64,000 nt of DNA from Salinimicrobium sediminilitoris (GTDB lineage Bacteria; Bacteroidota; Bacteroidia; Flavobacteriales; Flavobacteriaceae), in contig NZ_JAIVCC010000001.1 in NCBI RefSeq assembly GCF_020866905.1, positions 342,365 to 406,364 on the forward strand, given 5' to 3'. The stretch's first letter is position 1. Every line of letters begins with the position of its first letter. The position numbers and the translations under genes are program-made. This document shows, in pieces, positions 1 to 1,533 of this stretch. Below the pieces are notes generated by a model. The model worked only from the letters and a program-made list of their open reading frames with translations, searched no databases and was not told where the DNA came from.

Positions 1-41
1 TTCAGCGACTGAGAAATCTGCCTCTCGTAAAAAAGTATTAA

Positions 42-341
42 CTAAAATACATCCCAATTCAAAAATTGCCATTCAGGATTAAAGTTATTGATTAACTTCT
101 CTTTCTTTTCCCTTCGCCATTTTTTGATCTCTTTCTCTCTATTTATGGCTTGTGTAGGATTTTCAAAACCTTCATAATACACCAGATAGTAGCAACTGTA
201 TTTGCCTGCAAAAGATTTTCGGGAATGTTCACTGTCGAAATGATGCTGAGCAAGCCTTTTTTGAATGTTATTGGTAACACCGATATAAAGGGTTGTTTTA
301 TTCTTGTTGGTGACTATGTAAAGAAAATAATTGTGTAGCAT
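42..341 (-). CDS. GIY-YIG nuclease domain protein, copy 1
   Basis: A 99-residue single-domain protein of the YhbQ/UPF0213-like GIY-YIG group. The GIY strand is FLYI (residues 6-9), the YIG strand is LYIG (18-21), the expected catalytic Arg is R29 in QKRL, and the conserved Glu lies in INREKEIKKW (E69 or E71). No extra DNA-binding domain is present, so it is not a classical homing endonuclease. Substrate is unknown; proteins of this group are thought to nick or cut DNA. The gene sits inside the repeat array, its stop codon abutting a left half-repeat, and it is nearly identical to the copy at 897-1196 (Met-Leu-His versus Met-Leu-Tyr at the N terminus, one base difference seen). Start chosen is the only ATG giving the full GIY strand. 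Confidence 0.85.
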   Translation of the reverse strand: MLHNYFLYIVTNKNKTTLYIGVTNNIQKRLAQHHFDSEHSRKSFAGKYSCYYLVYYEGFENPTQAINREKEIKKWRREKKEKLINNFNPEWQFLNWDVF

Positions 342-896
342 AAATTAAATTTAGTCATTTCGAGGAAGCTTTTTCAGCGACTGAGAAATCTGCCTCTTGA
401 GAAGAGAAGATACTTTTTTTGAGAAGAAACATTTTATTTTTATTCATGAGATCTCTCGTCACTTCCTTCACTGCCGCTCAGGCTGCTCTGTCGAGATGAC
501 TACAATAGAGTCATTTCGAAGGAGCCTTTTTTTAGCGACTGAGAAATCTGCTTCTTGTGAATGAGGAAATATTGATTTATAAAGGAGCAAATTACTTCCA
601 TTCATTAGATCTCTCGTCGCTTCCTTCACTGCCGTTCAGGAAGCTCTGTCGAGATGACTAAAAATAGAGTCATTTCGAAGGAGCCTTTTTTAGCGACTGA
701 GAAATCTGCCTCCTGAGAACAGAAGATACTATTTTTTGGAAGAAACATTTTACTCTTATTCATGAGATCTCTCGTCACTCCCTTCACTGCGTTCAGGAAG
801 CTCTGTCGAGATGACTGCCGAAAATGTTCTTTTGTAGTCATTTCGATGGAGCTTTTTCAGCGACTGAGAAATCTGCCTCTCGTAAAAAAGTATTAA

Positions 897-1196
897 CTAA
901 AATACATCCCAATTCAAAAATTGCCATTCAGGATTAAAGTTATTGATTAACTTCTCTTTCTTTTCCCTTCGCCATTTTTTGATCTCTTTCTCTCTATTTA
1001 TGGCTTGTGTAGGATTTTCAAAACCTTCATAATACACCAGATAGTAGCAACTGTATTTGCCTGCAAAAGATTTTCGGGAATGTTCACTGTCGAAATGATG
1101 CTGAGCAAGCCTTTTTTGAATGTTATTGGTAACACCGATATAAAGGGTTGTTTTATTCTTGTTGGTGACTATGTAAAGAAAATAATTGTATAGCAT
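897..1196 (-). CDS. GIY-YIG nuclease domain protein, copy 2
   Basis: Second 99-residue GIY-YIG protein, 855 bp from the first copy and differing from it at one residue (Y3 instead of H3). All catalytic positions (FLYI, LYIG, R29, the Glu in INREKEIKKW) are intact in both. The flanking ~147-bp repeats of the two copies differ at roughly one base in ten, whereas the genes and the left half-repeat (856-1208 versus 1-353) differ at about one base in 350. That contrast suggests recent copying or gene conversion of the nuclease cassette rather than an old tandem duplication. Function inferred only from the fold. Confidence 0.85.
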   Translation of the reverse strand: MLYNYFLYIVTNKNKTTLYIGVTNNIQKRLAQHHFDSEHSRKSFAGKYSCYYLVYYEGFENPTQAINREKEIKKWRREKKEKLINNFNPEWQFLNWDVF

Positions 1197-1533
1197 AAAT
1201 TAAATTTAGTCATTTCGAAGGAGCCTTTTCGGCGATTGAGAAATCTGCCGCTTGAGAAGAGAAGATACCTTTTTTGGGAAGAAACATTTTACTCTTATTG
1301 ATGAGATCTCTCGTCGCTTCCTTCACTGCCGTTCAGGCAGCTCTGTCGAGATGACAATCAATAGGGTCATTTCGAAGGAGCCTTTTCGGCGACTGAGAAA
1401 TCTGCCTCTTGAGAAGGAGGAAATATTGTTTTATAAAGGAGCAAATTACTTTCATTCATGAGATCCCTCGTCGATTTCTTCCCTTCCGGTCAGAAACCTC
1501 TGTCGAGATGACGTTAATGATGAGGAGAAAGTC

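Follow-up and report, generated by a model that had tools for sequence, protein, structure and literature searches.

Small GIY-YIG nuclease genes accompany GTC-tagged REP hairpins across bacterial phyla and are candidates for a REP-dedicated enzyme

Introduction

Two small GIY-YIG nuclease genes of Salinimicrobium sediminilitoris lie among imperfect palindromes at the start of the 64,000-nucleotide stretch of DNA that was analysed here (the window). Are genes and palindromes merely neighbors, or do they form a partnership like that of RAYT and REP? The preliminary description, made from sequence alone, proposed that a single-domain GIY-YIG enzyme is partnered with dispersed palindromes. That proposal is supported well beyond the window locus, with cutting or maintenance of the repeats by the protein still inferred. 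No dedicated transposase has been found for CGTC-tagged REPs, which include dRS3 of Neisseria and RPE-4 and RPE-6 of Rickettsia (Di Nocera 2013, PMC3733652). In Bacteroidetes, RAYT genes of subclass 2.6 have atypical structures on their flanks (PMC6006769). Searches of the open-access literature, which excluded subscription journals and preprints, gave no relevant paper pairing GIY-YIG with REPs.

Results

Two nuclease genes in an array of palindromic units

The features of the locus are listed in Table 1. The five full units are 147-149 bp long, and each has two arms that start with GTCAT on opposite strands. The arms are GTCATTTC..GAAATC and GTCATCTC..GAGATC; their outer stem is 5 bp, the inner part is long and the tail is CTG, and the tag of these units is AGTC or GGTC. 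In gene orientation both genes follow a complete unit and are followed by one arm of another unit. The preliminary description had counted five full and two half units around two GIY-YIG genes, with about one difference in 350 between the gene cassettes and 14 in 147 between units. The unit count held. So did the divergence figures on recount, as the cassettes at 1-347 and 856-1202 have 1 difference in 347 and the units at 354-500 and 1209-1355 have 14 in 147. Its claim that the gene is joined to a half repeat holds in the window; the junction is not constant elsewhere, where the gene, unlike those of the window, often sits between two inverted arms.

Table 1. Palindromic units and nuclease genes at the window locus
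Feature	Position	Strand	Remarks
Remainder of half unit (one REP arm)	1..27	+	Cut by window edge; tag at C13:342346
GIY-YIG gene copy 1, 99 aa	42..341	-	Pfam PF01541
Full palindromic unit	354..500		Two GTC-tagged inverted arms around spacer
Full palindromic unit	510..658		
Full palindromic unit	669..815		
Half unit (one REP arm)	837..about 882	+	Adjoins stop codon of copy 2
GIY-YIG gene copy 2, 99 aa	897..1196	-	One residue unlike copy 1; Pfam
Full palindromic unit	1209..1355		Upstream of copy 2 in gene orientation
Full palindromic unit	1366..1512		Final array unit before pssA

The window starts inside a larger array, of which positions 1-1512 are the end. A second cluster of nine unit starts, two of them partial, lies beyond the lnt gene in the same genome. 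Tandem duplication accounts for much of the copy number within the window array. The units are also dispersed: the window unit has 29 blast matches in its own genome, and the arm motif GTCATTTCGANNGAGC, allowing at most one mismatch, occurs at 58 sites genome-wide versus 0 for the backward control. The genome contains 12 GIY-YIG matches, and tagged hairpins accompany only the two window genes, with six within 300 bp of each and none at the 10 other matches.

Five pieces of the window (arms and unit) were folded as single-stranded DNA, giving z scores of -0.88, 0.41, 0.74, -2.36 and 0.44. Only 1/5 folds better than its shuffles. Because the arms fold weakly as single-stranded DNA, the window units may have decayed, or they may be recognized as duplex. 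A known RNA family was rejected, the only matches being two sub-threshold ones to snoRNAs.

A conserved single-domain nuclease

The two window proteins differ by one residue and match the Pfam GIY-YIG family (PF01541) with E = 1.8e-16, above the family cut-off. Homologues occur in 133/199 family genomes. The closest named genome is that of Salinimicrobium sp. TH3, with a protein of 99% identity. Purifying selection acts on the gene, and the window genes differ from that of TH3 by 10 synonymous and 0-1 non-synonymous changes. Y8, Y19, G21, R29 and N88 are invariant in both homologue alignments; E69 is invariant in alignment A1 and at least 90% conserved in alignment A3. We take these six to be the counterparts of the catalytic residues in I-TevI and UvrC. 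The AlphaFold2 model of the window nuclease has a pLDDT of 94. By sequence and by fold, the best PDB matches are UPF0213 proteins (1zg2, 1ywl), followed in the fold search by Slx1, UvrC and I-TevI, none of them below E 0.001. A defence system was considered and set aside, the matches being weak and partial.

Inverted REP hairpins flank the gene in Bacteroidota

The best 80 of 573 matches were used as named Bacteroidota loci, and hairpins were sought within 250 bp. A tagged hairpin was found upstream in 57/80, downstream in the opposite orientation in 55/80, and on both sides as an inverted pair in 38/80; 77/80 have a GTC-tagged REP hairpin somewhere in this range. Control ORFs from the same loci (n = 177) gave 14 upstream, 21 downstream, 2 on both sides and 53 in any position. 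Since 53/177 control ORFs also have a hairpin, REPs are common near these genes generally, and it is the paired arrangement that stands out. Shuffled flanks gave means of 0.81 upstream, 0.79 downstream and 0 on both sides per 80 loci, and reversed flanks gave 1, 0 and 0. Under a stricter control using ORFs at least 500 bp away, hairpins on both sides within 200 bp were found at 0/130 ORFs versus 33/80 genes. Chance and base composition are rejected by the shuffled, reversed and neighboring-ORF controls. Mere terminators are likewise rejected, as the inverted arms lie on both sides and match dispersed copies.

The flanks of 29 family homologues were then read. They contain inverted arms of varying sequence, among them the pairs GTCATTTCGA..GAGAAATC, GTCATTCTGA..GAAGAATC, GTCATTCCGA..GAGGAATC and GTCATTGCGA..GAAGCAATC. 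Within 300 bp a tagged hairpin accompanies all of these 29 closest family loci and 50/80 of the next, more distant ones. No tagged hairpin was found within 300 bp of the other 30/80, many of which show untagged hairpins. Both family sets are the best-scoring listed homologue matches; 30 were fetched automatically, and the more distant 80 were hand-chosen from further matches in list order, some being skipped. The scan of Bacteroidota and family loci itself required AT at the stem start. Nuclease genes usually found without the repeats would have refuted the preliminary description. This is not so in the named loci (77/80 with a hairpin), nor in the more distant set (50/80).

Neither a tagged nor an untagged hairpin is present at 16/189 loci in all, and untagged hairpins alone occur near 14/130 control ORFs on each side. 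The untagged copies possibly act as terminators. Distant homologues with untagged hairpins (L204, L223, L235; L220, L226, L227, L246, L254) have downstream sequence that, by reading, is alike across genera, as if the gene were fixed at a conserved place.

A left arm and an inverted right arm lie within 300 bp of the gene at 102/205 loci, and in several the arms are identical. The shortest REP-gene-REP unit is 347 bp and the median is 506 bp. Over all arms the base preceding GTC is T in 235, C in 71, A in 47 and G in 15.

The proteobacterial and cyanobacterial hairpins are CGTC-tagged REPs

Seventeen loci from the plasmid collection, chosen to sample organisms from 19 and 45 records, span alpha-, beta- and gammaproteobacteria, cyanobacteria and Bacteroidota. 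Some of these records are chromosomes by size. The loci used include, for example, 1/7 Sphingobium and 0/9 of the listed Sinorhizobium medicae records with partial matches. The original hairpin pattern was found within 300 bp at 12/17 loci. A widened pattern, defined only after these sequences had been read, was found at 16/17, where shuffles would give 1.3, and at 9/17 it lies on both sides of the gene as an inverted pair. The sole exception of the 17 is the Salinivibrio locus, which has no REP within 300 bp and whose protein is distant and UPF0213-like. Arms of the type CGTCATCCTCGGGCTTGACCCGAGGATCC occur in Sinorhizobium, Neorhizobium and Shinella. Neisseria and Aeromonas have CGTCATTCCCGCG..CGGGAATC arms, and those of Sinorhizobium K101 and Rhizobium tumorigenes are CCTC-tagged. 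REPs are also present on many plasmid records without the gene. In nine S. medicae plasmid records (H53-H61) the match to the S. meliloti protein stops after the first 30-31 residues, and these are likely to be decayed copies.

Azospirillum lipoferum, Sinorhizobium meliloti and Neisseria, all named as hosts of CGTC-tagged REPs (PMC3733652), carry the GIY-YIG gene. The REPs beside the proteobacterial and cyanobacterial homologues are the CGTC REPs of that study, in whose text GIY-YIG has 0 occurrences. The CGTC/TGTC/CCTC tag is shared by the proteobacterial and cyanobacterial loci and by most arms, the window units having A or G in first place. AT at the stem start and end is present in the window arms, while two plasmid-collection loci use AC or GC. 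A stem of 8-9 bp, a loop of 4-5 and the tail CCA are present in the proteobacterial loci and absent from the window arms. Dispersal as inverted pairs is seen in the 58 sites of the Salinimicrobium genome and the five inverted pairs of the window.

REP number in genomes with and without the gene

If repeats were equally abundant without the gene, the partnership proposed in the preliminary description would be refuted. With one general REP pattern this refutation fails for close homologues: genomes with one (E<1e-24) have a median of 19 matches and at least five in 25/29, against a median of 1 and at least five in 6/66 where there is no homologue. The link is not absolute. Genomes with weaker homologues barely do better, with medians of 2 and 1 and at least five matches in 12/54 and 10/50. 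These counts may oppose a simple gene-REP rule, or the general pattern may miss other REP types. Four of the 66 homologue-free genomes carry 17-122 matches. A profile search of six REP-bearing homologue-free genomes found weak matches in two and none in four, so REPs can abound (up to 122 matches) without the gene. The genomes with 17-122 matches and a weak or absent homologue are G094, G036, G186 and G164.

Nuclease lineage predicts REP type

Because the general pattern showed a clear excess only with close homologues, four type-specific patterns were counted instead. REP type was defined as the four bases after GTCAT in the nearest arm. The 205 loci gave 168 type labels, of which 148 were used (types seen at least three times). 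In 89/148 cases the closest protein relative from another genome shares the stem type, compared with 14.8 on average and a maximum of 27 in 500 permutations. To take out the effect of the host, shuffling of types was confined to paralogues of the same genome; 25/38 match versus 8.6 +- 2.9, and 0/2000 shuffles reached this value. Relatedness of the nucleases predicts the stem type of the REP, and does so even between paralogues in a single genome. A quick tree gave 54 label changes; this count has no null to compare with and is left out of the evidence.

Since genes and arms are linked, the type match in cis by itself shows only inheritance as a cassette. Dispersed REPs were therefore counted in 199 genomes with the four type-specific patterns. 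Those of the matching type have medians of 13.5, 3, 7 and 5 per genome, and genomes with genes of other types have a median of 0 for each (p 4e-5 to 7e-4). The combined score is 77.7, versus 42.4 +- 5.7 and a maximum of 60.9 in 2000 within-genome permutations. Cis copies were subtracted only inside the fetched loci, and array copies beyond the 0.5-1.5 kb fetched are treated as dispersed. For the window's genome a cis count of 14 was entered manually. Homologues that were not fetched occur in some of the 148 genomes classed as "without labelled gene".

REP-gene-REP units at sites empty in relatives

In the genus Salinimicrobium pssA was found in 11/12 genomes, and the GIY-YIG gene occupies the lnt-pssA place in 2/11. 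Tagged hairpins lie at this place in four genomes (10, 11, 4 and 1); none was found in the stretch examined in the other seven. Salinimicrobium sp. TH3 has one gene here; on the far side of lnt, reading shows about one unit, versus nine in the window's genome.

In Azospirillum lipoferum the gene and REPs fill a 617-bp gap from sufB to sufC. The same gap is 55-129 bp in four annotated relatives and contains no gene; a fifth, unannotated relative is also without the gene there. The sufB-sufC gap of Shinella sp. PSBB067 holds a 425-bp REP-gene-REP unit whose REP differs from that of A. lipoferum, versus a gap of 77 bp in Sinorhizobium meliloti. REP-gene-REP units occur at sites that are empty in relatives. 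At the Azospirillum and Shinella suf sites no target-site duplication was recognized, and the gaps could not be aligned base by base. The near-identical flanks of the Rhizobium CIAT894 and Novosphingobium loci yielded no clean empty site. Two alphaproteobacterial genera occupy the sufB-sufC gap with different REP sequences (L163, L179), and the gap may be a favored site.

A sister group at tRNA genes

Small GIY-YIG genes of a sister group, often in tandem arrays, adjoin tRNA genes (Phe, Asn, Met, Arg, Val, His, Ser, Pro). Such loci in the Salinimicrobium genome are G000:C16:250699-251882, C10:421741 and C10:262758 (L013, L014, L016, L018, L019). ARAGORN found a tRNA in 27/29 loci of relatives (L281-L309), always on the strand of the gene. 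A further full or partial copy of the adjoining tRNA is present in 22/29, typically a 3' or 5' piece across the gene. In the truncated tRNA copies of the Salinimicrobium genome (L014, L016, L018), short palindromes such as CCCCGATAGCTATCGGGG replace part of the T arm. The group looks like an element by which a tRNA gene is split and restored.

Discussion

The association of the gene with REPs is shown across phyla, as is the match between nuclease lineage and REP type, both in cis and with dispersed REPs. On balance we favor the view that the window genes encode a dedicated nuclease of a REP family, the GIY-YIG counterpart of the RAYT/REP system, with the caveat that RAYT presence in these genomes was not assessed. 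With similar, moderate confidence we regard the GIY-YIG nuclease as a strong candidate for the missing enzyme of CGTC-type REPs, its cleavage activity and mobility being inferred.

The favored model is as follows. A single-domain GIY-YIG enzyme of about 95-100 residues is carried between or beside GTC-tagged REP hairpins. The REP-gene-REP unit would be the autonomous form, and gene-free REP pairs such as the 147-bp units of the window would be non-autonomous copies. The nuclease is predicted to recognize the REP hairpin of its own type when single-stranded or extruded, and to nick or cut at the REP. Host repair or replication would then copy the REP, or the REP and gene, elsewhere, and arrays would expand. 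The idea that the enzyme acts on its own REP is drawn by analogy from RAYT and REP. Purifying selection, intact conserved GIY-YIG residues and the presence or absence of units at orthologous sites are shown; hairpin recognition, the place of cutting and the route of copying are all inferred, and neither cutting nor movement has been observed. Evidence that counts against the model comes from the genomes and plasmid records that carry REPs but not the gene, from the more distant homologues, which had little REP excess under one pattern and often no tagged hairpin nearby, from the weak folding of the window arms, and from the lack of a recognized target duplication at the suf sites.

Three other explanations were weighed. 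The nuclease could be a homing-type passenger, which cuts REPs to copy its own gene while another enzyme, e.g. RAYT, spreads the REPs. This remains possible. The half units beside the genes, and the near-identity of the genes among diverged units, resemble conversion into an existing array. The tRNA-linked sister group is similar, its genes having a complete tRNA to one side and a fragment of it to the other, and REP-rich genomes without the gene exist. Against this explanation, sufB-sufC holds REP-gene-REP where relatives have a short REP-free gap, so a prior REP target seems unnecessary, although a two-step history is possible. The enrichment of dispersed REPs of the matching type also speaks against it.

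It is unlikely that the protein is a host hairpin-processing or repair enzyme that limits REP damage, the adjoining REPs being regulatory targets or ordinary terminators. In its favor are the strong purifying selection, the copies at seemingly conserved places with untagged hairpins, and a weak fold similarity to Slx1, ranking after UPF0213. Caulobacter, moreover, has three COG2827 genes, one of them with an SOS box, for which a repair role has been guessed (PMC1839093). However, the gene is at the window locus in only 2/11 of the genus and elsewhere at unrelated places, the inverted arms lie on both sides rather than only downstream, and lineage and REP type covary. The last possibility, that there is no functional link and that local tandem duplication coincides with chance hairpins by small AT-rich genes, draws support from the role of tandem duplication in the window array. 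It is contradicted by the shuffled, reversed and neighboring-ORF controls and by the cross-phylum loci, and is virtually eliminated.

If the favored reading, a REP-dedicated nuclease, is true, REPs have acquired nuclease partners on two or more occasions, the enzymes being unrelated, and a large set of genes annotated only as "GIY-YIG nuclease family protein" or "excinuclease ABC subunit C" would be mobile-element genes. A named candidate makes the question of the CGTC-REP enzyme testable with a small protein, a hairpin, and matched versus mismatched types, and the candidate occurs in cultivable laboratory species. A bolder reading, toward which we are slightly more skeptical than inclined, is that REP - GIY-YIG gene - inverted REP is a new class of mobile element whose sole protein is the nuclease of ~95-100 residues. 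Gene-free pairs would be its non-autonomous copies, including those of alpha- and other proteobacteria, cyanobacteria and Bacteroidota. Were this so, such units, at about 350-430 bp, would rank with the smallest autonomous DNA elements and would move without transposase chemistry, and the tRNA-gene sister group would be a second branch with the tRNA fold as target.

Among known proteins, the UPF0213/YhbQ-like single-domain GIY-YIG proteins are the nearest in sequence and fold (UPF0213 and YhbQ belong together). Unlike the REP-linked genes, the single such locus examined, that of Salinivibrio, has no REP within 300 bp. Slx1 and the UvrC N-terminal domain, next in the fold search, are structure-dependent GIY-YIG nucleases; unlike the window protein they are parts of larger proteins or complexes, and their Foldseek matches are at E 0.05 or weaker. 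The homing endonucleases of the I-TevI type share the GIY-YIG catalytic domain and a gene that seemingly spreads with its site. The window nuclease, in contrast, has no separate DNA-binding domain in its 99 residues and no intron or intein, its presumed target is a dispersed hairpin repeat, and the I-TevI fold match is weak.

Among repeats and elements, insertion sequences and MITEs are alike in having terminal inverted repeats, given the 102/205 loci with both arms. The CGTC-tagged REPs (PMC3733652) share the CGTC/TGTC/CCTC tag, the AT-starting stem and the inverted pairs, whereas the window units have an AGTC/GGTC tag, a shorter outer stem and the tail CTG. A parallel in organization is RAYT/TnpA-REP with its GTAG-tagged REPs, REPINs and REPtrons. 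In both systems a small nuclease gene lies beside inverted tagged REP hairpins, gene-free REP pairs are dispersed, and enzyme lineage follows REP type. The tag here is instead GTC preceded by C, T, A or G. By Pfam the enzyme is a GIY-YIG nuclease rather than an HUH tyrosine transposase, so a covalent protein-DNA step is not expected. One criterion of a REPtron, a gene flanked by genome-dispersed REPs, is fulfilled by the GIY-YIG loci.
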